Part shown: in pieces, positions 29 through 14,451 of the stretch
Layout of the letters: every line of letters begins with the position of its first letter
Numbering within the stretch: the first letter of the stretch is position 1
Assembly: GCA_938048455.1 (NCBI GenBank)
Contig: CALIUY010000058.1
Location: forward strand, 1 to 35,284
Reading direction: 5' to 3'
Length of the DNA: 35,284 nt
Source of the DNA: an uncultured Desulfobacterales bacterium
Lineage (GTDB): Bacteria > Desulfobacterota > Desulfobacteria > Desulfobacterales > SpSt-501
Program-made: the position numbers and the translations under genes
Notes under the pieces: model-generated
What the model saw: only the letters and a program-made list of their open reading frames with translations
What the model was told of the DNA's origin: nothing
Database searches by the model: none

Positions 29-982
29 TCAAGGACGCCGGCGGGACGCCGAGAAGGCGAGGCGGAAGCCGAGGCCGGCCCCGTAGTAGTCCTCGGGAAA
101 GCCGAAGCGGCGGCTGCAGCGCGCGCTCCAATCATCCAGGCTCCAGGAGCCGCCGCGGATGACGCGTTCGGTCACCCCGCGCCGGGCGCTGCGGGCCTGC
201 GGCGCGACGGCGACCGCGCCCGGGATGTAGAGGTCCGCGCACCACTCCCAGACGTTTCCGCTCATGTCGTAGAGGCCTAAACCGTTCGGCGCCTTGCGGC
301 CGACCGGCTGGGTGGTGCCGCCGCTGTTTTCGGCGTACCAGGCGACGCGGTCGATCTCGTCGCCGCCGGCGTAGAGCTCGCGTTTCCCGCCGCTGCGGGC
401 GGCGTATTCCCACTCGGCCTCGGTCGGAAGCCGAAACTCGCCCAGACCGGGGGAGCGCTCGCGCAGCCGGCGGATGAACTCCTGGACATCGGCCCAGCTC
501 ACCTGCTCCACGGGGTAATCCTCCCCGAGCCGGAAATGGGAGGGGTTCTCGGGCATGATCTTCGACCACTGTCCCTGGGTCACGGGGGTTTTGGCGAGAA
601 AAAAATCCTCGATCCGCACCTCGCGCGGCGGGGTTTCGTTGTCCCAGCCGACCTCGAAGAGATCGCCCATGGAAAACGTACCGCCTTTCACGAAGACGAA
701 CGCCATGCCCGTCACCGGTTCGATGCAGGGCCCTTCGCCGGCGCCGGGGGTGGAAGCCGTGAGGCAGTGGGGGCAGTCGGTCGCGTCGGGCGGAAGTCTC
801 CTGCCGCAGGCGGAGCAGGCCAGGCGCCTGCCGCATGCGGGACAGCGCTTCCAGTGAGCCTTGACCGCGTCGCCGCATCCGGGACAGCGGGCCTCGGCCA
901 ACGGCCGCTCACAGGCCGGGCAGAAGCTCCATTCCGGTTGAACGGCCTCGCCGCAACCGGGACAGACAAGACTCTCGGCCAT
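29..982 (-). CDS. Triple zinc-ribbon protein with C-terminal FGE-sulfatase (SUMF1) fold domain
   Basis: A 317-aa protein. The first 75 residues hold six CxxC pairs (about residues 7-10, 21-24, 33-36, 47-50, 56-59, 70-73), which pair into three zinc ribbons. Residues ~90-310 form a formylglycine-generating-enzyme-like domain, recognised from the GGTFSMG start, the LPTEAEWEYAAR block, GNVWEW and the final GFRLAF. The start is the ATG at 982, because a GAGGGGAGG ribosome site lies just before it and sequence further upstream is low-complexity. The late FGE region has one Cys (in ARCSRRFGF) and no second Cys five residues on, so canonical sulfatase-activating chemistry is doubtful; many proteins of this fold are binding or modification modules. 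It is the last gene of the operon from 6422, 100 nt after the CobW gene. The family is clear; the role is unknown. Confidence 0.85.
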   Translation of the reverse strand: MAESLVCPGCGEAVQPEWSFCPACERPLAEARCPGCGDAVKAHWKRCPACGRRLACSACGRRLPPDATDCPHCLTASTPGAGEGPCIEPVTGMAFVFVKGGTFSMGDLFEVGWDNETPPREVRIEDFFLAKTPVTQGQWSKIMPENPSHFRLGEDYPVEQVSWADVQEFIRRLRERSPGLGEFRLPTEAEWEYAARSGGKRELYAGGDEIDRVAWYAENSGGTTQPVGRKAPNGLGLYDMSGNVWEWCADLYIPGAVAVAPQARSARRGVTERVIRGGSWSLDDWSARCSRRFGFPEDYYGAGLGFRLAFSASRRRP

Positions 983-1082
983 TCCTCCCCTCCTCCGGGC
1001 CGGCGCCCTATGCCGGACGCCGTTGCGGGAAATGTAAGCAAAACGGGCCGCGAATTCAAACCCCGCACCGCAAGGAGGGGGC

Positions 1083-2936
1083 TCAGGAGGCGGCGCGGAC
1101 GGCTTGGAGCAAGGCGTCGGGAAGATCGGCGGGGCCCTTGCCGATGACCGTGATGAACCGCTCGGGGATGTCGGGTCGGGCGAACTTCGCGATCTCGTAG
1201 CGGCCGCAGACATAGTGAAGGGTGTGGACGCCGGGGGCGTCCGTGAAGGACACCAGGCCCTTCGCCCGGAAGACTTGGGGGGGGAGCTCCTCGAGCGCTT
1301 GCAGCAGACTCTTGCGCTCGCAGGCTCCGGCGAGACGAAGCGTGCGGCTCCAGAGGCCGGAGGCGCTATGGCTTAGGCCCGCGGCGGGAGGGCCTCCCCC
1401 GGATCGCGGACGGGCGGGCTCGAGGTCGAGGATCCAGGCGGGGTTGAGATCCCCGCGGACGGCCGGAAATCGAAGCGCTCGGGGGTTGATCCCTTCCAGC
1501 AGACGCTCCACCTCCGCCAGGCGCGCCTCGTTCACGAGATCGCGTTTGTTGATCACCAGAATGTCCGCCGCCCGGACCTGGTCGACGGCGAGCGGCTCCT
1601 CGGAAAGCAGCCGCACGGCGTGCGCCGCATCGAGAAGGGTTACGGTGCAGTCGTAGCGCACGAGCTCCCCCCAGTCGGGCTCTTCCGCGAGCAGGGAAAG
1701 CGGGTTGGCGAGCCCGGTGGTCTCGAGGATCACGCAATCCGGAGAAAAGCGCGCCCGGATCTCTTTCAACGCGCGTTTCAGGTTCCCCGAAAGGGTGCAG
1801 CAGACGCAACCCTCGTCGATCTCGGTCACCTCGCAGTCGAGGAGCTTGCCGTCGAGGCCGACCTCGCCGATCTCGTTTTGGATGACGGCGACGAAACGGT
1901 GCCGCCGGCTCTGGTATTCCAGGAAATGCTGGAGAAAGCTCGTCTTGCCCGCCCCCAGGAACCCGGTGAGCAGAATGAAAGGCGGCCGCTCGTCGACGCC
2001 GAGGAGCCGTTTCTCGATGCTTGACCTTGCTTGGAAGTTGTGTGCCCGCCACCAGAGCCGCCCCCGGTGTTCCTGCGGGGCGTCCTCCGGGCCTGTCGCC
2101 GCGACTACGACGGAGATCGGCTCCGGGTCCACCAGCGCGGGCCGGGTAAAGGGAAAGGCTGCAGCCGATTGTCCGAAGTCCAGGCGAAGCAGGCGGGTTT
2201 GGAAATCGGCAGCCAGGCGCAAGCTTTCCGCGGAGCCCGCTCTTCCGGTCCACTCGAAGGCCGGGTGCCGCGATTCCCGCAGCCGCTCCGGAGGCCGGCC
2301 GAGGTGAAAGGTGAGCGAAGCCGAAAGCGTCTCGAAAAAGAACAGCGCCGTCTCCCAGGCGGGGAAATCCTCGTCCACCCCGCCGGGGGCGACAAGCCAG
2401 CGCGCCTCCCCCGAGCCGGCGATGCGAATGCCCTCCGGGGCGAGGACGCGCAGCCGCTCGGGGGCCTCGAGCGCCAGCGCCGCAGCCCGCCGGTCACGGC
2501 GCAGCCCCAGGCGGACGAGGGCGATGCCGAAGAGATCGGCGAAGCCCGCTTCTTCGGTGAAGCGCCGCACCCGTTCGCGATAGCCTTTGCGCCGGGTTTC
2601 GACCGCGGCCCGTATGGAAAGGGACTCCACCCGCTCCTCTTCGGGGTCCGGGAAATAGCACAGCCCGAAGCGGCCGGCGGCCCAGTCGGCGGGGGCGTCC
2701 TCTTCGGCTTCCTGGAAGAAGAGGCCGAAGACGCCGGGGGCGGCGGCGATCCTTGCCGTCCAGGCTCCCGCCGCGCCCGGGGTCACGCTCAGGCCGCGCC
2801 ACCCCAGCGCGTGCCGCACGGCGGGGACGAAGTGGGCGCGCATGAGCAGCGCCCGCAGGAACGCGGGCAGGACAAGCCCGGAGTCGGCGTCCAGGTCGAG
2901 GTTGGCGATCTCCTCCAAGGGGAGGGCAGCGACCAC
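1083..2936 (-). CDS. CobW/COG0523-family GTPase (metallochaperone) with ~310-aa N-terminal extension
   Basis: A 617-aa protein. The COG0523 GTPase occupies residues ~318-510: Walker A GFLGAGKT (325-332), the metal-binding GCVCC (376-380), ETTG (405-408) and NKRD (463-466). A CobW C-terminal-type domain follows at ~528-617. Family members use GTP hydrolysis to load Zn, Co, Fe or other metals onto client proteins. Classical members are 300-400 aa, so the first ~310 residues, which I do not recognise, form an additional domain. The start is GTG at 2936, with an AAGG-type ribosome site 8-9 nt upstream. It lies 23 nt after the small membrane protein gene in the operon from 6422, which suggests a metal-loaded client encoded alongside. 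GTPase call secure; metal and client inferred. Confidence 0.9.
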   Translation of the reverse strand: MVAALPLEEIANLDLDADSGLVLPAFLRALLMRAHFVPAVRHALGWRGLSVTPGAAGAWTARIAAAPGVFGLFFQEAEEDAPADWAAGRFGLCYFPDPEEERVESLSIRAAVETRRKGYRERVRRFTEEAGFADLFGIALVRLGLRRDRRAAALALEAPERLRVLAPEGIRIAGSGEARWLVAPGGVDEDFPAWETALFFFETLSASLTFHLGRPPERLRESRHPAFEWTGRAGSAESLRLAADFQTRLLRLDFGQSAAAFPFTRPALVDPEPISVVVAATGPEDAPQEHRGRLWWRAHNFQARSSIEKRLLGVDERPPFILLTGFLGAGKTSFLQHFLEYQSRRHRFVAVIQNEIGEVGLDGKLLDCEVTEIDEGCVCCTLSGNLKRALKEIRARFSPDCVILETTGLANPLSLLAEEPDWGELVRYDCTVTLLDAAHAVRLLSEEPLAVDQVRAADILVINKRDLVNEARLAEVERLLEGINPRALRFPAVRGDLNPAWILDLEPARPRSGGGPPAAGLSHSASGLWSRTLRLAGACERKSLLQALEELPPQVFRAKGLVSFTDAPGVHTLHYVCGRYEIAKFARPDIPERFITVIGKGPADLPDALLQAVRAAS

Positions 2937-2959
2937 GGCTTACGCCTTTCTCCGCAGGC

Positions 2960-3355
2960 TCAATATTCCACCTTGCCGCCCTTCGGGCCGCCCCAGGCGA
3001 AGCTCCGGATCCGTCCGTCTTTCCAGCCGAGTGAGAAAATTCGGACCGTGCCCTTGGCGGCAGGGGAATCCGTGCACTCCTCCACGCGGGACTCCACGGT
3101 GTACACGGTCAGCCCTCCCTGTTCCTCGGTCTTGAGGATCACGGGCTTGGCCATCTCGCACTTGCCGAGCTCGGCGGGCACCACCCCGGGGTCGCCGTAT
3201 TTCGCGATCACCGCCGCCCGTTGGGCGCGGTCGGCAAAAGCGTCGATCACTTCCTGCATCGGGGGGATGGGCTTCTTTCCCAACAGCGCGACCAGAAAGG
3301 GCAGCAAAAGGAAAACAACGGGCAGATAGGCCCACGACGCGTGCGCGTGTCTCAC
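2960..3355 (-). CDS. Small N-terminally anchored protein of unknown function
   Basis: A 131-aa protein with one hydrophobic segment at residues ~8-27 that would act as a membrane anchor or uncleaved signal. The rest is a polar domain with two Cys residues (in GKCEMAK and VEECTDS) that could form a disulfide if it faces the periplasm. The start is GTG at 3355, with a strong AAGGAGG ribosome site 5 nt upstream. I do not recognise the family. It lies between the Tat-exported MBL hydrolase and the CobW GTPase on the same strand with short gaps, so it is probably co-expressed and may be an accessory subunit of the same envelope complex. Confidence 0.75.
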   Translation of the reverse strand: MRHAHASWAYLPVVFLLLPFLVALLGKKPIPPMQEVIDAFADRAQRAAVIAKYGDPGVVPAELGKCEMAKPVILKTEEQGGLTVYTVESRVEECTDSPAAKGTVRIFSLGWKDGRIRSFAWGGPKGGKVEY

Positions 3356-3431
3356 GGAAACCTCCTTGGGAGAGCGGCGGAGGAGAAAAACCTTCCTCCC
3401 GCCGCTCGTGGTGGAGTCTTTTCCATCGGGC

Positions 3432-4610
3432 TTATACCTCGGTCCCGTAGCCGATCTTGTCGCCGTTTCCGAGGTAAGCCGTGTCCTTGGAACGATAGCG
3501 CGCCGTCCCCCTGACGACCGGATAACCCGCCTCGATGAACTTCTTGGCGCAAAGGATTCCGGTGCAGTGATTGCAGCCGATCTTCTTGAAGCCGTACTTG
3601 CCGAGCGAGAGCACCAGGTCGTCGTACTTGGGGTCCCAGTCCTCGAAGGGCGAGATGTGAAGCCCGCCGTAGATCCCGTAGAGCTGGTCTTTCTCGTACT
3701 TGATCTCGCGATAGGCGGTCTCGGAGAACTGGATGATCCCGAAGTGGCAACATCCGGTAATGCTGACCAGGCCGTGGTCCTTCACGTTCACGTAGATCGA
3801 TTGCTCGCCGTAAACGCGGCAGATGATCGGTACCGGGAAATTGTACGTGGCCATGCCGGGGATCATGCGATTCAACTCCCCGGACTTGACTTCGATCCGT
3901 TTCCCCTTGTGGCCGGCATCGTTCAGGTACTGCAGCCCCTCGGGGTACAAGCCTTGGGGATAATAGGTGGTGATGTTCGGGTTGTACTTGAAGACCACCG
4001 GGATGCCCCAGAAGTGGTCGAAGTGCTCGTGCGAGATGATGAAGGCCTCGATCTCGTTGTTTTTCAGCATCTGGTCGATCCCCTCGCGCCGGAAGCACTC
4101 GTCGATCCACTTGTAGGACCAACCGGAATCGAGGAGGAACTTGCGCTTGCGGCCGTCCAGCTCTTCGATCTCGATCAGGGCGGAGAAACCGCCGGCGTTG
4201 TCGGGGCTGACCGAGAGCTTTTCGCTCAGCGCCCAGGCCTCCTCCAGGTTGTGCGGGAGCAGGTGCTTGATCTTGGCGATCCCTTTCTCGTAGCTCCCCT
4301 TGCCGAGGCCGGTGCCGTCGCCGAAGGGCGGCCAGTTGTAACTGTACTGGTTGACGAGCAGGCCGCCCGCCTCCTTGATGTCCTTCATGAGAACGGCGTT
4401 TTCGAACCAGCTCGTCTCCGAGATGTTCGTGACCTTGACCGATTTGCAGACCCCGATGTCGGCGAGCTGGCGTTTGACTTCCGGCAGATAGGATTTCCGC
4501 CAGGGGGAATACGAATACAGCCCCATCCCCAGGATCGTTCCCCCCATCACGCCCATCGCGGCGCCCTTGAGGAAGCCGCGGCGGCTGATCGTGGTTTTCT
4601 CTTCGGACAT
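3432..4610 (-). CDS. Tat-exported metallo-beta-lactamase-fold hydrolase
   Basis: A 392-aa protein. The N-terminus carries a twin-arginine signal (SRRGFLK at residues 9-15) followed by a hydrophobic stretch to ~residue 32, so it should be exported folded, with its metal, to the outer face of the cytoplasmic membrane. The MBL metal motif HEHFDH is at 194-199, with later family-like blocks TGCCHFGI, GGLHISPF and NHCTGI. This arrangement resembles the MBL branch annotated as dihydropterin/ribofuranosyl-aminobenzene phosphate synthase-like, whose substrates are mostly unknown. The start is ATG at 4610 with TAAGGAGG close upstream. It is 23 nt downstream of the polytopic membrane protein gene; the pairing suggests a periplasmic enzyme acting with a membrane partner. 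Confidence 0.9.
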   Translation of the reverse strand: MSEEKTTISRRGFLKGAAMGVMGGTILGMGLYSYSPWRKSYLPEVKRQLADIGVCKSVKVTNISETSWFENAVLMKDIKEAGGLLVNQYSYNWPPFGDGTGLGKGSYEKGIAKIKHLLPHNLEEAWALSEKLSVSPDNAGGFSALIEIEELDGRKRKFLLDSGWSYKWIDECFRREGIDQMLKNNEIEAFIISHEHFDHFWGIPVVFKYNPNITTYYPQGLYPEGLQYLNDAGHKGKRIEVKSGELNRMIPGMATYNFPVPIICRVYGEQSIYVNVKDHGLVSITGCCHFGIIQFSETAYREIKYEKDQLYGIYGGLHISPFEDWDPKYDDLVLSLGKYGFKKIGCNHCTGILCAKKFIEAGYPVVRGTARYRSKDTAYLGNGDKIGYGTEV

Positions 4611-4633
4611 GGCTCCTCCTTATCGCTGCACGG

Positions 4634-6046
4634 TCACTTGATGACCGTGATGTGCTGGTAGGCCCAGGGCAGCACACTCAGGGTGATGAAATAGACCGCG
4701 ATCCCGCACACGGCCCCTACGCCCAGCCCCCAGCCGAGAGCCGGGTTCCAGCGGACCTCCGCCAATTTCGCTCTCTCCGCCGCATGGTCGGCCGCGATCT
4801 CTTGGGCGGTCTTGGGCACCATCTTCCAGGCCGGCCAGTTGTCCATGAACCAGTGGTGGACGAGCCAGATGTTGATCAGCCAGATGGTCGGGATCATGGG
4901 GAACTGCTGCTCGTGCATGAAGCCCTTTTGCGTCCCCAGGTAGTCGTGGGAGGTCTTGTAGTAGAAAAGGTAAAGCGCGATCGCCGCGGCGAGGGTGATC
5001 ACCGTGCGCAGGAACACGTTCACCGGCAGGCTGAAGCGCCGCGGCCAGTTGTTGCCGTAGAAGGTGAGAAAGAGGGCCGGGACGAGGAAGAAAACCGCCA
5101 TCTCGCCGACATGGAGCCAGCGCCAGTCGGGGGCGTTGATCAGGCGGGTGCCGCGGATCGCCGGCCCCCACGTCAACTCTTGGGCGAAATAGAGGAAGAA
5201 GTGCATCGCCCAGGCGATGGCGATGATGCCGAAGAAAGCGACCAGCCGGCGCAGCCAGTTCGTCCGGATCAGCTTGAAGGGGAAGCGCTCCCAGATCGTC
5301 TCGACCAGCCAGACCGTGACCGTGCAACACATGATCCAGGCCACATGGAAATTCCCCGACACCGTGTTGGCGAACTTCTCCCAGTAGGGCGGGGCGATCG
5401 CGGTGAAGTACTGCCAGGGATAGTAAAGAATGCCCATGTGGGAGTGCATGGTCATGAAGTAGATGAGCGTGCTCAGGAAAAAGGTGAAGACGACGATGCT
5501 GATGCCCTTGGCCGGCTGGCTCATGTTCTGCCAGGGCACCTCCTCGCAGGCGACCACCCAGGCCGGGCTCAGCCAGGAGGCGATCGCCGCGAACATCAGA
5601 CAGGCGAGCGAGGCGTACTCAAGGGCGAAGAATTCGGTCATGCGCGGCAGCTTCATCAGCCGCTCGGGGTTGAAGTAGGCGATCCCGAAGTTTCCGAGAA
5701 TCGACTCGAAAAAGCCCTTGATCAGCACCCAGAGGATCACGACCGAAATCGCCGTCAGCACCGCTCCCTTGACCAGCGGGTGCGTGTTCTCGAGCCAGCG
5801 GCGCTTGAAGGGCCAGTAGTTGAAGATGTAGACCATCCAGATCAACATGATCAGCCACCAGCGGGTGTACATGTAGCCCACGTAGGGCGTGTACATCCGC
5901 AGCCAGCCCCGCGGATCCTGGAAAATCCACCAGCTGACGTAGAACACGGCGAGCGTCACCACCAAGGCGACGATCGCCGCAATCGGCTGGGGCCAACGCG
6001 GGATGAGTTTTCTTTCCTCCAGATAACCGGTACCGTATCGTTCCAT
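4634..6046 (-). CDS. Polytopic membrane protein, His/Trp-rich, unknown family
   Basis: A 470-aa protein with roughly ten to twelve hydrophobic segments spread from residue ~20 to the C-terminus. Histidines lie in or next to these segments (in MTMHSHMG, NFHVAWIM, AMHFFLYF, RWLHVGEM and LVHHWFMD), a pattern seen in heme- or metal-binding membrane proteins and quinol-interacting subunits. Trp and Tyr are abundant. I do not recognise it as a known permease or oxidase family. The start is ATG at 6046, preceded by AAAGGGGGG; a longer in-frame reading to 6226 overlaps the gene upstream and is low-complexity. It is followed closely by the Tat-exported MBL protein. Membrane location is certain; a redox or metal role is inference. 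Confidence 0.85.
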   Translation of the reverse strand: MERYGTGYLEERKLIPRWPQPIAAIVALVVTLAVFYVSWWIFQDPRGWLRMYTPYVGYMYTRWWLIMLIWMVYIFNYWPFKRRWLENTHPLVKGAVLTAISVVILWVLIKGFFESILGNFGIAYFNPERLMKLPRMTEFFALEYASLACLMFAAIASWLSPAWVVACEEVPWQNMSQPAKGISIVVFTFFLSTLIYFMTMHSHMGILYYPWQYFTAIAPPYWEKFANTVSGNFHVAWIMCCTVTVWLVETIWERFPFKLIRTNWLRRLVAFFGIIAIAWAMHFFLYFAQELTWGPAIRGTRLINAPDWRWLHVGEMAVFFLVPALFLTFYGNNWPRRFSLPVNVFLRTVITLAAAIALYLFYYKTSHDYLGTQKGFMHEQQFPMIPTIWLINIWLVHHWFMDNWPAWKMVPKTAQEIAADHAAERAKLAEVRWNPALGWGLGVGAVCGIAVYFITLSVLPWAYQHITVIK

Positions 6047-6107
6047 GAATACCCCCCTTTCCGATCGGGTTATGGAAATGAAACCGCCGCGGGCCTCGGC
6101 GGATGCT

Positions 6108-6422
6108 TCACCTTCCCGAATTCCCTCCCTTACCCGGCGGAGGATTCTCACCCCTTGTCTCCGGAACGGGGCGCACGCAGCGGCTCGCCAGTTCCCGGCA
6201 GATCGCCCGCCGCAGCTCCCCGACATCGGTCCCTTCGGGGTTCAGCCCGCGGCGTTCGGCTTCGATCGCGAGCAGCGCCGGGCTGAGTTCGGTCTCGGCC
6301 ACGCCGCAAGTCGCATCCCCCAAGGGATCGGAAGGGGGGGAATCCCCTGCGCCGGCTAAACCCCTCACCGCCCGGAGACCCCGGGCCAGCAAATCCCTGA
6401 AAAACTCTTGACGCGAGAGCAT
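6108..6422 (-). CDS. Small hypothetical protein, probable first gene of the sigma-54 operon
   Basis: A 104-aa reading frame from ATG 6422. It begins LSRQEFF, then an Arg-rich amphipathic stretch, an acidic middle and a ...ELRRAICREL helix; there are three Cys (in ATCGVAE, AICREL and ASRCVRP) and a Gly/Pro-rich tail. I do not recognise the family. The sigma-54 promoter at 6436-6450 predicts a transcript start near 6424, so this ATG would be almost leaderless. The longer frame reaching 6482 would start upstream of the promoter and is unlikely. It ends 61 nt before the membrane protein gene. It is probably real, but start and expression need proof. Confidence 0.55.
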   Translation of the reverse strand: MLSRQEFFRDLLARGLRAVRGLAGAGDSPPSDPLGDATCGVAETELSPALLAIEAERRGLNPEGTDVGELRRAICRELASRCVRPVPETRGENPPPGKGGNSGR

Positions 6423-6435
6423 ACGAATTGCCTGA

Positions 6436-6450
6436 GCAAATGCAGTGCCA
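6436..6450 (-). promoter_or_regulatory. Sigma-54 (-24/-12) promoter
   Basis: Read on the minus strand the element is TGGCAC-N5-TTGC, an exact match to the RpoN consensus, with TGGCAC at 6450-6445 and TTGC at 6439-6436. Counting from the -12 C at 6436, transcription should begin near 6424 and run into the operon 6422-29. A sigma-54 activator gene lies nearby (7290-8636) and is the natural candidate regulator. The match is seen directly; activity is inferred. Confidence 0.85.
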
Positions 6451-6460
6451 GGACGCCGGC

Positions 6461-6501
6461 GAAACGATGTGTCCAATATCACCCCGATTTCACATCGTTT
6501 C
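6461..6501. promoter_or_regulatory. Perfect 11-bp inverted repeat, candidate activator site
   Basis: GAAACGATGTG (6461-6471) and its exact reverse complement CACATCGTTTC (6491-6501) are separated by 19 nt, giving a centre-to-centre distance of 30 nt, about three helical turns. Relative to the predicted sigma-54 start at ~6424 the arms lie at about -42 and -72. That is closer than most enhancer-binding-protein sites but compatible with dimer binding on one DNA face. No T-tract follows on either strand, so it is unlikely to be a terminator. Confidence 0.6.
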
Positions 6502-6598: not shown

Positions 6599-7042
6599 TC
6601 AGGACTCCTTGAAGCCGGGCATGCGGAACCGCTCCTCGTTCAACCGCCCGTTTCGGTAGGCCGCGAGCACTTCACCGACTTCGCCGCTGACACCGCTGAT
6701 CAACTCGATTTTTCCGACTTCGAGGAGCGTGGAAAAAGCCTCGCTCAAGGCGCCGCAAATCACCGTGCCCACGCCGTGGCGCTTCAATTCGCTTACACGT
6801 TCGGAGGGGGAGAGGCCATCACAGGTCAGGGTACGCGGCTCCCGAAACTCTCCGTCTCCCAGGTCGAGCAGCACCAGGCGATGACAGGTGTCCAAAACCG
6901 GGGATACGCAGCCGCGGAAAACCGGCACGGCGACCCGACGGTTTCGCCGCGGAGGAGGGGACGAAGGAAACGGCGACGCGACTCGACTCACACCCTGACG
7001 GGTCCAGGTTTTCGGGCAAAAGATGCAGGGATGCTTTGCCAT
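6599..7042 (-). CDS. NifX/NifB-type dinitrogenase FeMo-cofactor domain protein
   Basis: A 147-aa protein. Residues ~35-140 match the small NifX/NafY/NifB C-terminal fold: a RRVAVPVF opening, a central strand GVGTVICGA, then GEVGEVLAAYRNGRL near the end. This fold binds Fe-, Mo- or related metal-sulfur clusters or acts as a cluster carrier. A CIFC pair near the N-terminus precedes the domain. ATG 7042 is preferred, with GGGGA upstream; the longer frame would start at a TTG at 7102. It lies between the sigma-54 operon (same strand, downstream) and the divergent activator gene. The pairing of a NifX protein with a sigma-54 activator recalls the orange-protein loci of Desulfovibrio. Confidence 0.8.
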   Translation of the reverse strand: MAKHPCIFCPKTWTRQGVSRVASPFPSSPPPRRNRRVAVPVFRGCVSPVLDTCHRLVLLDLGDGEFREPRTLTCDGLSPSERVSELKRHGVGTVICGALSEAFSTLLEVGKIELISGVSGEVGEVLAAYRNGRLNEERFRMPGFKES

Positions 7043-7289: not shown

Positions 7290-8636
7290 ATGAAAACCAC
7301 CCCCGGGGAGATCGAGCTTCGCCACCACGAGTTGATTCTCGACAGCATTCAGGAAGGGGTGTTCACGGTCGACCTGAATTGGCGCATCACCTCCTTCAAC
7401 CGTGCCGCCCAAGAGATCACCGGGGTGCCGCGGGCCGAAGCGTTGGGGCGGCGCTGCTTCGAGGTCTTCCGCGCCGACATCTGCGAAACCGGCTGCATGC
7501 TGCGCCGCACGATCGCCAGCGGCACCCCCCTGGCCAACGCCCTGGTCCACATCTACCGCGCCGACAAAAGGCGCATCCCCATCCGCATCAGCACCGCCCT
7601 GCTGCGCGACCCCTCCGGCCGCCCCGTCGGCGGGGTCGAGACGTTCCAGGACATGAGCGCCCTCCAAGAGCTGCAACGAACCTTGAGACGGCAATACCGC
7701 TTCGAGGACATCGTCAGCAAGAACCCGCGCATGCACAAGATCTTCGCCATGCTCCCCCAGGTGGCCGCAAGCGGGAGCACGGTCCTGATCGAAGGAGCGA
7801 GCGGCACGGGCAAGGAGCTTGTGGCGCGGGCGATCCACCACCACAGCCCGCAGCGCGAGGGGCCCTTCGTGGCCGTGAACTGCGGTGCGCTTCCCGAGAC
7901 GCTGATCGAGGCCGAGCTGTTCGGTTACACGGCGGGGGCCTTCACCGACGCGCGGCGGGACAAGCCGGGCCGTTTCGCGCTCGCCCGGGACGGAACGATC
8001 TTTCTGGACGAGATCGGCGACATTTCCCCCGCCCTCCAGGTGCGGCTGCTGCGGGTGCTGCAAGAGCGCACTTACGAGCCGCTCGGCTCGGGAAAGCCCG
8101 TCCCGACGAACGCGCGGGTGATCGCCGCCACGCACCGCGACTTAAGGCGGCTCGTCCGCGAGGAAAAGTTCCGGGAGGATCTCTATTTTCGCGTCAATGT
8201 CTTCCGGATCAGCCTGCCGCCGCTCGCCGAACGCCGCGAGGACATCCCGCTTCTTGTCGAGCATTTCATCGAGCGCTTCAATCTCCTGCGGGGCCGGTCC
8301 GTGGTCGGGGTTTCCCGCGAGGCGATGGAGGTCCTCCTGCACCACGAATGGCCTGGAAACGTGCGCGAGCTCGAAAACGCGATCGAGCACGCCTTCGTTC
8401 TCTGCCGCAAGGACACGATCGGCCTCGAGGACCTCCCGGAGCACCTGCAATCCTCTCCCCCCCCGTGCCGCGCGGCGGCAGCCTCCAACCTGCGGGAAAT
8501 CGAACGGACGGCGATCCTTCAGGCCCTCGAGCGCGCGGGCGGCCGCGCGCTCGGGATCGACAAGAATACGCTTCGCCGCAAAATGATCCGCCTCGGCCTG
8601 CGGCCGCCGCCCCGGAGACCGGATCGCCCCTCTTGA
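7290..8636 (+). CDS. PAS-AAA+ sigma-54-dependent transcriptional activator
   Basis: A 448-aa protein. A PAS domain occupies residues ~10-125 and contains three Cys (C56, C65, C69) that could sense redox or bind a metal. The AAA+ core spans ~143-370: Walker A GASGTGKE (169-176), the sigma-54 contact loop GAFTDA (216-221) and Walker [10 protein letters not shown] (236-244). A Fis-type helix-turn-helix should follow at ~400-440. There the sequence passes directly from ERAGG to RALGIDKNT, about six residues shorter than the usual family helix. The gene is divergent from the NifX-like gene and is the likely activator of the promoter at 6436-6450. ATG 7290 has only a weak AGG ribosome site. Confidence 0.92.
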
Positions 8637-8657: not shown

Positions 8658-11890
<3,233 letters not shown>

Positions 11891-11894
<4 letters not shown>

Positions 11895-13033
11895 GAGGGC
11901 TGCTCCACGCGCATGCCGTCGATCAACCCCGCCGGAGGAGCGACTACGTATCGCACGTCCTCGGTTAGACCCGAGAGAACGACCGCCCGGTCTTCTCCGA
12001 GAGGCGCGATGCGGACGAGGCGGAACCGGGCGATTCCGGAGTCGTCGAGCACGAAGAGGCCGGTCAGCTGCCCCTGACGCACGAGCGCGGTCGCCGGGAC
12101 GACGATCCGCGGCGCTTCGCCCAGGGGGATGGCGACCCGGACGTAGGCGCCGGGACGAAGCGCCGCCTCCCGCGGCAGGCGGATCTTGAGCAGCACCGTG
12201 CGGCTGGAAGGATCCGCGGTGGGGGAGGCGTGCTCGATCACACCGCGATGGTTCTTTCCCTCCGCCTCCACGCGCACGGCCGTCCCGGGCAGGGCGGCGG
12301 CCGCCGCCGACTCGGGGGCGTGCACCTCGACCCGAAGGCCGCCTTCTTTCTCCAACCGCAGAAGCGGCCTTCCCGGGGCGGCGTGTTCGCCCGGCTCGAC
12401 CAGCCGGGCGGCGACAAGAGCGTCGTAAGGAGCCCTCAGATGCGTGTCGGCCGCCGCGGCCCGGGCCTGGGCGAGCGCCGCCTCGGCCCGATCCACTCCC
12501 GCGGCGGCGGCGGCGGCGGCCGCCGCGGCCCGGCGCCGCTCGGCTTCGGCCTGCTGTCGGCGCGCTTCGACTTCGTCGTATTCCTGGCGGCTCGTCGCCT
12601 CCTTCTCAAAAAGCTCGCGGTAGCGCTTGCCGGTCGCCTCAGCGAGTGCGGCCGCACTGGCGGCGGCGTCGCGTCCGGCCCGGGCGGCCTCGGCCGCCCG
12701 GCGCGCCGCGGCGAGCGCCGCCTCGGCCTCGCGCAACCGGGCATCGGCCTGCCGGGGGTCGACGACCACGAGCACATCCCCCGCCCTCACCCGATCCCCC
12801 TCGCGCACCCGGACCTCGGTCACGGCGCCTGGGGTTTTCGCCGCGATCAGGCTGGAGACCTCGGACTGCACGGTCCCGGGGACCTCGATCTCGATCGGCG
12901 AGGCCACGGCCCGGGCCACCGCGACGGACGCGCGGACGGCCGCCGGTTTTCCCTCCGTGCGGCCGGGCTCGATGCGCTCGCCGCAGCCCAAGACACAGAG
13001 CATCCCCCCCAGCAGACCCGCGAGGATTTTCAT
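11891..13033 (-). CDS. RND efflux periplasmic adaptor (HlyD/AcrA family), lipoprotein
   Basis: A 380-aa membrane-fusion protein. The N-terminus is a lipoprotein signal with lipobox VLGC (Cys17). Lipoyl-like halves flank a long Ala/Arg/Glu-rich coiled-coil hairpin at ~95-190, and beta-barrel and membrane-proximal regions follow. It bridges the inner-membrane RND pump and the outer-membrane channel. It overlaps the upstream TolC gene and the downstream pump gene by 4 nt each, so the three should be made in fixed ratio. The Ala-rich hairpin is strongly GC-biased, which explains the long antisense frames here. Confidence 0.95.
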
Positions 13034-14451
13034 CGAACCTCCGCGCCGGACGGTTTTGCGCCTCTTTCGCCTTCGATCTCCGCCGCCCCGAGCACTCCGG
13101 AGGCGCGCTCGAGTTCGACCCGGCCGAGCACGAGATCATGGCGCGCCTGGAAGAGCAGACGCCGGGCGTCCTGGAGGGCCGCCTCGGCCGAGAGCAGATC
13201 GACCATGGTGACGAGGCCCGCGGCGTAGCGCTCGGCCGTGATCCGGAGCGCCTCCTCGGCCTCGGAAACCGCCGCCGCCGCGACCCCGATGCGCCGGGCG
13301 GCGCTCTCGGCCGCGTTGTGCGCGCGGCGGACCTCGAGCAGGACCCGGTCCTCGATCCGCCGTCTCTCGGCCTGAACCTGACGCAGCCGGGCGTGCGCTT
13401 CGCCGACGGAGGCCGAGACGGCAAAACCCGAAAACAGGGGCAGCTGGACGAGGGCGCCGAAGGCGTAATGTTCCCCCGAGCCCTCGAAGTTCTCGGAATG
13501 GACGGCGACGTCGCCCACGAGATCGAGCCGCGGGAGATGCCCCGCGCGGGAGCGTTCCACACGCTCCCGGGCCATCTCCTCCAGCAGGGCCATTTCCTCG
13601 AGATCGGCCCGGTGGGTCCGGGCCCGGACCAGCCAGTCTTCCAGCGGCTCCGCGCGGCGGCGGAGCCATACCGCGGCAAGTTCCGGCAACGAGTCGGCGG
13701 GCAGGGCCGGCATCTCCCGCCGCAGCCCCATGGCCGCGGCCAGGGCGGCGCGCGCCGTTTCGATACGGCTGGCGGCGTCGAGCCGCTGCTGCTCGAGATC
13801 GGCCGCCCGCACCCGTGCGCGCAGAAGGTCGGACTTCACGGAAATCCCGGCGGCATGACGGTTCTCGGCCAGACGTGCGTGGGCGTGCGCCGCCGCCAGA
13901 GCGGCCTCGACGACGGCGACCTGCTCGCGGGCAAGCAGCCAGCCGGCGTAGGCGGCGGTCACCTCGGCGATCACCGCCTGGCGGGTGCGCTCGAGCGCGA
14001 AATCCGCCGCCCGGCGGCCGAGGCCGGCCTCTTTCCAGGCATGCCGCGTCCGGCCGCCGTCGTAGAGCGTCCAGGAGGCACGCAGCGAGCCCCCGAAATC
14101 GGAAATCGCGCTCGGCCGGTTGAGGCGGTCGATGTCGAAGTCCGCGGCCGCAAAGCGTTCCTGATTGAGCTTGCTCGCGAAGACCTCCGGGGGGTGGGTG
14201 GTGCGGCGGAAGGATCCTTCGGCGTCGAGCCGCGGGAAAAACCCGGCCCGCTCGCGAGTGAGACCCTCCTCGGCGGCTTCGGCCCCGGCGCGCGCCGCAG
14301 CGATCGCCGGGTGATCGCGCAGGGCGATGGCGATGGCCCCCGAAAGCGAAAGCTCGGCTTCGCCCCCCTCGCCGGCCGCCGCCGGGAATCCGGCGCCAGA
14401 GAAGCCCCACGCGAGCATCAGCAAAGCGGCGAACGCCTTCTTCCTGACCAT
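13030..14451 (-). CDS. TolC-family outer-membrane efflux channel
   Basis: A 473-aa protein with a cleavable signal peptide (residues ~1-26, ending near PAAAG). The usual duplicated TolC structure follows: ALRDHPAIAAAR in the first repeat and, in the second half, RAHNAAESAARR and ALRITAERYAAGLVTMVDLL, the typical end-of-repeat motif. It forms the outer-membrane duct of the tripartite pump encoded just downstream (4-nt overlap). ATG 14451 is the start, with only a weak GGAA-type ribosome site. It is divergent from the IscU-like gene at 14710, leaving a 258-nt shared intergenic region. Confidence 0.93.
   Translation of the reverse strand: MVRKKAFAALLMLAWGFSGAGFPAAAGEGGEAELSLSGAIAIALRDHPAIAAARAGAEAAEEGLTRERAGFFPRLDAEGSFRRTTHPPEVFASKLNQERFAAADFDIDRLNRPSAISDFGGSLRASWTLYDGGRTRHAWKEAGLGRRAADFALERTRQAVIAEVTAAYAGWLLAREQVAVVEAALAAAHAHARLAENRHAAGISVKSDLLRARVRAADLEQQRLDAASRIETARAALAAAMGLRREMPALPADSLPELAAVWLRRRAEPLEDWLVRARTHRADLEEMALLEEMARERVERSRAGHLPRLDLVGDVAVHSENFEGSGEHYAFGALVQLPLFSGFAVSASVGEAHARLRQVQAERRRIEDRVLLEVRRAHNAAESAARRIGVAAAAVSEAEEALRITAERYAAGLVTMVDLLSAEAALQDARRLLFQARHDLVLGRVELERASGVLGAAEIEGERGAKPSGAEVR

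Follow-up and report, generated by a model that had tools for sequence, protein, structure and literature searches.

A conserved gene cassette for a membrane protein, a predicted Tat-exported metallo-beta-lactamase-fold protein and a CobW-type GTPase

The six-gene set and its promoter

The window analyzed here is the whole 35,284-nucleotide stretch of contig CALIUY010000058.1 from an uncultured Desulfobacterales bacterium. It contains six same-strand genes, g1 to g6, with gaps of 61, 23, 76, 23 and 100 bp (Table 1). An earlier reading of the letters without database searches (the sequence-only reading) had described these closely spaced genes behind a consensus -24/-12 promoter, and had proposed that they encode an envelope metalloenzyme consisting of a membrane core and an exported metallo-beta-lactamase (MBL) subunit, together with its maturation factors. 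Both the gene arrangement and a perfect promoter site were found, and the set continues upstream beyond the six genes with g0 and a divergent sigma-54 activator (EBP). By sequence comparison, the core of the cassette is three genes: those for the membrane protein MEMB (g2), for the MBL (g3) and for a protein joining an N-terminal domain (N-domain) to a CobW GTPase (g5), while g1, g4 and the FGE-sulfatase gene g6 are accessory. The cassette is almost certainly one functional unit.

Pfam profiles matched Lactamase_B in g3, cobW and CobW_C in g5, and DZR and FGE-sulfatase in g6, bearing out the MBL, CobW-type and zinc-ribbon/FGE identities given earlier, and g1, g2 and g4 gave no Pfam match at E 0.1. 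Among the NCBIfam matches listed for the window proteins, the Tat (twin-arginine) signal of g3 alone exceeds its cut-off; g0 resembles the C-terminal part of MrpORP at a score far below the cut-off. One copy of MEMB is present in the window's genome.

Two sigma-54 sites at ≤1 mismatch occur in the window, where shuffling expects 0.58 and 11 of 100 shuffles reach two, so the promoter evidence from this single window is weak. Stronger evidence comes from extending the comparison to the 600 bases 5' of the MEMB gene, again at ≤1 mismatch, in 79 related loci plus the window (one locus was too short upstream). Sites were present in 7 of the 12 loci with an activator and without a GntR gene (window included), in 6 of the 26 with neither and in 0 of the 42 with GntR; activator and site thus both recur in the clade of the window. 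With a -24/-12 site and a linked activator, the window set is by sequence a sigma-54 regulon. The predicted transcription start, at about 6424, is only ~2 nt 5' of the g1 ATG, so g1 is nearly leaderless or else its start or the promoter site is misjudged; this spacing is the same in L025, and is 45-68 nt in L026, L027 and L030 (hand count). An inverted repeat just 5' of the promoter was considered as a conserved regulator site and rejected, as in L025, the closest of the loci, no repeat of ≥8 bp was found 5' of its promoter.

Table 1. Features of the window and of comparison loci (a locus handle precedes coordinates outside the window)
Feature	Position	Strand	Basis
sigma-54 (-24/-12) promoter, TGGCACTGCATTTGCT	6450-6435	-	0 mismatches to consensus used
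g1, 104-aa small protein, 3 Cys, basic N-terminus (SRQEFFRDLL) that by eye is similar in relatives	6108..6422	-	open reading frame, clustering
g2, MEMB, 470-aa polytopic membrane protein, no recognised family, core	4634..6046	-	
g3, MBL, predicted Tat-exported metallo-beta-lactamase-fold hydrolase, probably signal-anchored, core	3432..4610	-	
g4, membrane-anchored two-Cys protein, accessory	2960..3355	-	
g5, N-domain (about 1-315, no recognised family) plus COG0523/CobW GTPase with P-loop and CxCC, core	1083..2936	-	
g6, double zinc ribbon (DZR) plus FGE-sulfatase domain, narrow accessory	29..982	-	Pfam
g0, Nitro_FeMo-Co (NifX/ORP-like) protein	6599..7042	-	Pfam 26.1 bits, cut-off 26.3
PAS plus sigma-54 activator (EBP), divergent	7290..8636	+	Pfam
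11-bp perfect inverted repeat, 19-nt spacer, just 5' of promoter, possible regulator site	6461..6501		
RND-type gene set past activator	8658-14451	-	named from reading only
Cytochrome-like gene (clade B)	L021:4141-4482, L208:6692-7000, L209:6800-7108		Pfam of L021 and L208 below cut-off
DsrC-like inserts	L015:4358-5014 and 1568-2242; L018:2193-2849; L026:14043-14666		PF04358 for both L015 proteins; others by similarity

Co-occurrence and spread

Among GTDB genomes, 172 MEMB-related loci were found, and locus counts refer to the best 80 of these 172; counts over 81, the gene clusters among them, and the 80 gene pairs below include the window. Locus genes were called with a codon-usage script of our own in place of a gene finder, and some loci end at contig ends, so that counts of flanking genes are lower bounds. 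An MBL match lies beside MEMB in 80/80 loci (in L062 only as a stretch at the contig end). MEMB-MBL pairs were called in 79 loci and the window, and in all 80 both genes are on the same strand, separated by 9-216 bp (median 21). The g5 N-domain was matched in 72 of the 80 loci and its GTPase in 69, so the CobW gene is usually present. In five of the 11 loci without a GTPase match the contig ends there (L036, L039, L062, L072, L091). The activator was matched anywhere in the locus in 17 loci, and the other genes were sparser: by tblastn 15 loci match g4, 10 the NifX-like gene, 6 g1 and 2 FGE. Clustering instead of tblastn placed g1 in 23/81 loci and g0 (NifX-like) in 12/81. At these frequencies g1, g4 and g6, counted earlier as parts of the system, fall outside its core; the FGE gene in particular was rejected as a core member.

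To compare whole genomes, 395 from the phylum were searched for MBL at E 1e-20 and MEMB at E 1e-3. Full-length MBL (>680 bits) was found in 12 of them and full-length MEMB (>680 bits) in the identical 12. The 680-bit line was set after the scores were known and falls in a wide gap for both proteins (684 to 369 for MBL, 683 to 420 for MEMB). The remaining 32 genomes with MBL comprise 6 with an adjacent shorter MEMB (clade B, as distinct from the clade A of the window), 1 with fragments of both, 1 with both unlinked and 24 without MEMB; a MEMB relative without MBL is present in 13 of the 395. The sequence-only reading had staked its system on the membrane protein and the MBL gene keeping company in other genomes, and they do; together with the pairing within loci, the 12 shared genomes led us to reject chance clustering. 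Distance matrices correlate at r 0.92 for MEMB-MBL, 0.85 for MEMB-CobW and 0.69 for MEMB-GntR, of which common ancestry alone gives some.

MEMB or a relative was present in 13 of 58 near genomes (the window's own included). At ≥60% identity, MEMB in the 80 loci extends over Desulfobacterota, Alpha- and Betaproteobacteria and one Deferribacteraceae genome. Hosts include Desulfatitalea, Malonomonas rubra, Desulfogranum, Pseudovibrio, Rhodobium, Rhodospira, Rhodoplanes, Desulfovibrio and the gut-associated Parasutterella and Candidatus Bilophila faecipullorum. In 289 comparison alphaproteobacterial genomes either gene was found only in the seed genome, indicating that the set is rare in that class and that no MBL occurs there without MEMB. 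A MEMB tree of 85 rows intermixes classes and requires at least 5 changes on well-supported branches for Alphaproteobacteria and 6 for Desulfovibrionia. Its class labels come from record titles, and 'Myxococcia' is an apparent artefact of old 'Deltaproteobacteria' names. The mixed tree is compatible with horizontal transfer of the cassette without proving it, as titles and binning are imperfect. A plasmid search gave no match.

The three core proteins

The g3 protein belongs to the metallo-beta-lactamase superfamily (PF00753, 23.9 bits; cut-off 22.7), and the HxHxDH, GCxH and NHCTG motifs are present in all 80 full-length MBL proteins (79 loci and the window). Its twin-arginine motif scores 19.1 bits with TIGR01409 (cut-off 16.7) and 17.7 with PF10518, under the 22.7 of that profile. 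The motif RRx[FLMI] stands at the N-terminus of 79/80 full-length MBLs, the remaining one being an RK variant. By this signal the MBL is a predicted Tat substrate, as the sequence-only reading had it. In clade A a hydrophobic stretch shows no evident cleavage site by eye, which suggests a signal anchor by which the MBL may stay tethered. No NCBIfam cut-off for a named MBL equivalog was reached by the window protein, and 39 members matched 0 families at E 1e-5; the MBL alignment contains 35 of the 79 loci, the window and 3 others. Profile comparison relates the MBL to the hydrolases of PDB 7dck, 2p4z and 3h3e (E 5.2e-17, 7.9e-13 and 4.9e-4), with which it shares the HxHxDH and GCxH/HCTG pattern. 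It differs from them in its Tat signal, in an insertion of ~40 residues relative to clade B and in that the full-length form always adjoins MEMB.

The g5 GTPase is a COG0523 G3E member (PF02492, E 3e-42; PF07683, E 1.3e-8; YjiA, E 5.9e-54). Its CxCC motif and P-loop were found in 69/71 CobW proteins (70 loci and the window), and the remaining two are truncated. The named COG0523 types in NCBIfam were not reached, with scores of 93.5 of 332.1 bits for CobW, 89.6 of 361 for PRK11537 (which we take to be the YjiA type) and 86.1 of 600 for ZigA. For the N-domain no clear relative was found, and PDB profiles were fruitless; the cobW rows in its profile search are members whose excised segment extends into the GTPase. 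The alignments contain, for CobW, 39 of the 70 loci, the window and 4 others, and for the N-domain 26 of the 70, the window and 8 others. In clade B the N-domain stands alone without the GTPase, and 9 of the 10 proteins examined have CxC as their tail. The same domain is thus joined to a CxCC GTPase in one clade and to a CxC tail in the other, which is our main reason for suggesting that it is the docking part of a metallochaperone.

MEMB had been called His-rich, which is generous for 12 His in 470 residues, although several of them are fully conserved. Its alignment contains 68 of the 80 loci and the window (69 clade A rows), 4 clade B and 3 distant rows. Glu143, His201, His203, Asp307, Arg309, His312 and Glu315 are identical in 69/69 clade A and 4/4 clade B rows, and only His312 and Glu315 of the seven persist in the 3 distant rows. 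Structure models gave a pLDDT of 72 from 12 aligned rows, and of 84.4 with a pTM of 0.88 from 76 rows. Topology was read from the model helices and charge counts, not from a topology program: Lys and Arg are richer on the side opposite the conserved residues in 76/76 rows, which places the N-terminus inside and Glu143, His201, His203, His312 and Glu315 at or near helix ends on the predicted periplasmic side. A WP motif recurs, by eye, in loops predicted to face inward.

For neither MEMB model was there a clear match to a solved fold (Foldseek best E 0.04; VIA Z under 5), which does not show that the fold is new. The top Foldseek matches for both models are NrfD/PsrC-type subunits (6btm_C; 6f0k_C, 6lod_C), chain C of which we take to be ActC of alternative complex III; at E 0.04-0.06 and TM 0.14-0.16 this likeness is no better than chance. 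NarK-, MATE- and GPCR-like folds were rejected (VIA Z all <5; TM ≤0.29 among the 50 Foldseek matches listed for each model). The ureide permease family PF07168 is an unlikely identity, as it matched 11 of 76 members weakly (best E 2.3e-4) and the window protein not at all. No NCBIfam match was obtained at E 1e-3 for 76 members, PDB profile comparison gave no useful match, and self-alignment revealed no internal repeats (best off-diagonal probability 11%).

Neighbours and possible function

The regulatory genes beside the cassette vary. Clusters of GntR-FCD regulators (45/81 loci) and of a PAS-containing protein (35/81) both replace the activator outside the window's clade. A TonB cluster is present in 19/81 loci, ExbD in 19 and ExbB in 18, mostly 3' of g5; the GntR, TonB, ExbD and ExbB names rest on the Pfam result of one member per cluster. 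Six of the 80 loci have chemoreceptor genes no more than ~600 bp from the cassette, and four of these were confirmed by Pfam. The C-terminal part of the PAS-containing protein (L063:4039-5358) includes a conserved block, SIKPIDWALFIP; in the one member scanned, no output domain was recognised. Desulfovibrio ORP (orange protein) operons likewise place a divergent sigma-54 activator beside a Nitro_FeMo-Co-domain protein; unlike them, the window yielded no ParA/MinD-type ATPase family among eight proteins scanned with Pfam. Three near relatives (L015, L018, L026) have tandem DsrC-like proteins inserted in their operons; by eye these proteins lack the final Cys of DsrC. A link to cobaltochelatase or B12 was discarded, as a ChlI-like query from L130 matched only L026, which is the same contig.

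More distant relatives differ in their surroundings. Within ~3 kb of MEMB relatives lacking an MBL, all 8 loci examined carry either AMP-binding ligases (L022, L023, L024 and L132, with L022 and L024 named only by blast to L023) or a B12-dependent acyl-CoA mutase with MeaB (L131, L133, L134, L135), neighbours that suggest small-carboxylate handling. These distant proteins (L022-L024, L131-L135) form a second uncharacterised MEMB subfamily. In L202 an MBL relative (1368-2959; 45% to clade B) adjoins a run of DsrE-like/Hdr-like genes, named by eye, and the MEMB relative of that genome is on a different contig.

The reading we favour, tentatively, is that the cassette is a conserved envelope module in which a hydrolase and a permease work together and are served by a dedicated metallochaperone. 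A sensed compound would turn the operon on; the N-domain would dock on its client, and the CxCC GTPase would load metal into the MBL in the cytoplasm. Tat would then export the folded, metal-loaded MBL, and the uncleaved signal helix would tether it at the outer face. There it would hydrolyze a small substrate, entering by TonB-ExbBD-driven uptake in some hosts, and MEMB, with the MBL seated against it, would import the product. Of this scheme the sequences themselves show the unit, the Tat signal, the metal motifs and the regulators, from which the loading, docking, substrate and transport steps are inferred. That the CobW protein serves the MBL (or MEMB) is probable, and a permease is a slightly better guess for MEMB than an enzyme. 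GntR, TonB and chemoreceptor neighbours fit small-molecule uptake better than a metalloenzyme core, and the acyl-CoA context of the distant relatives points the same way.

COG0523/G3E metallochaperones offer a precedent, since Nha3 with Fe-type nitrile hydratase and HypB with [NiFe]-hydrogenase are likewise P-loop/CxCC GTPases encoded beside one metalloprotein. [NiFe]-hydrogenase is also a Tat-exported enzyme on a membrane subunit. The cassette GTPase differs from Nha3 and HypB in that a 315-aa N-domain without a recognised family precedes it, and its presumed client is the MBL. COG0523 GTPases are widespread; CxCC is their metal motif, and many members, clients included, are described as uncharacterised (PMC9164220). 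Nitrile hydratase activators are described in PMC2770081, and the word lactamase occurs in neither text. No description of the cassette was found among the papers listed in the literature searches, whose scope excluded the main COG0523 survey and the majority of subscription journals, so absence is not proof. The sequence-only reading could name no described system with this composition, and none was named by family, structure or literature searches.

Several observations weigh against the module reading. Six loci (L078, L079, L080, L085, L089, L099) keep the Tat-MBL beside MEMB without CobW and with room to spare, so CobW is not always linked to the pair, and the clade B set lacks the GTPase altogether. 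MBL relatives without MEMB and MEMB relatives without MBL exist, all of shorter, weaker-scoring types. No TonB-dependent receptor was found among 10 of the 14 listed large neighbours scanned, which are chemoreceptors, kinases, a peroxidase and others, and it was rejected as part of the set. MEMB has no clear match to any transporter family or fold. His201 and His203 are kept in 73/73 MBL-partnered rows and lost in 3/3 distant rows, as one would expect if MEMB and the MBL formed a metal site together, and not if MEMB were simply a permease. Finally, three clade B loci (L021, L208, L209) have a small CxxCH cytochrome-like gene directly 5' of the MBL, which points to redox chemistry; it weakly resembles (below cut-off) the haem-binding domain of quinohemoprotein amine dehydrogenase.

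These last points bear on an envelope metalloenzyme, as the sequence-only reading had proposed, which we consider rather unlikely. MEMB would be its catalytic or electron-passing core, with an outer-face metal site of Glu143, His201, His203, His312 and Glu315; the MBL would be the outer subunit, and CobW with the N-domain would mature one or both. The invariance and predicted periplasmic placement of the five residues, the clade B cytochrome-like gene and the tandem DsrC-like proteins speak for it. However, MEMB matches no heme or metal family, only two of the five residues are kept in the distant group, and of the CxxCH stretches that a script picked out near clade A cassettes none is cytochrome-like by eye. 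What stands of that proposal is a conserved system with a Tat-MBL and a CobW protein, with MEMB a possible metalloenzyme core. A bolder version is more doubtful still: a new envelope metalloenzyme class in which MEMB is a metal enzyme of unseen fold, the tethered MBL completes the outer site and the GTPase loads the MBL via the docking domain, the set having spread among distant anaerobe classes including Parasutterella and Bilophila. We know of no chaperone design in which one docking domain uses either a GTPase or a CxC tail.

Acquisition of a metal or metallophore has a lower standing again. Here the MBL would free metal from, or cleave, a chelate brought by TonB-ExbBD, MEMB would carry the metal in and CobW would receive it. 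Some loci unite COG0523 with TonB, ExbB and ExbD in a single cassette, and this and the His/Glu cluster at the MEMB outer face speak for it, but the TonB set is confined to 19/81 loci and the distant MEMB relatives lie near acyl-CoA enzymes. In addition, the regulators are PAS-EBP or GntR-FCD and no known metalloregulator (no Zur/Fur box search was made), and chemoreceptors would in our judgement be unusual for metals. That there is no functional system, only adjacent genes that function separately or a known system that goes by a different name, is highly improbable: the FGE, g1, g4 and DsrC-like accessories do come and go, but the pair is together in every locus and in 12/12 shared genomes, the gene tree mixes distant classes yet the pair stays together, and MEMB reaches no named family.

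Many anaerobes, gut species among them, carry this conserved, unnamed gene set. It defines a membrane protein family for which NCBIfam has no match, Pfam a weak one in some members and the PDB no clear one. For the COG0523 proteins the cassette proposes a specific client, the exported MBL. The N-domain may name the client of its GTPase, which would make metal delivery before Tat export directly testable.

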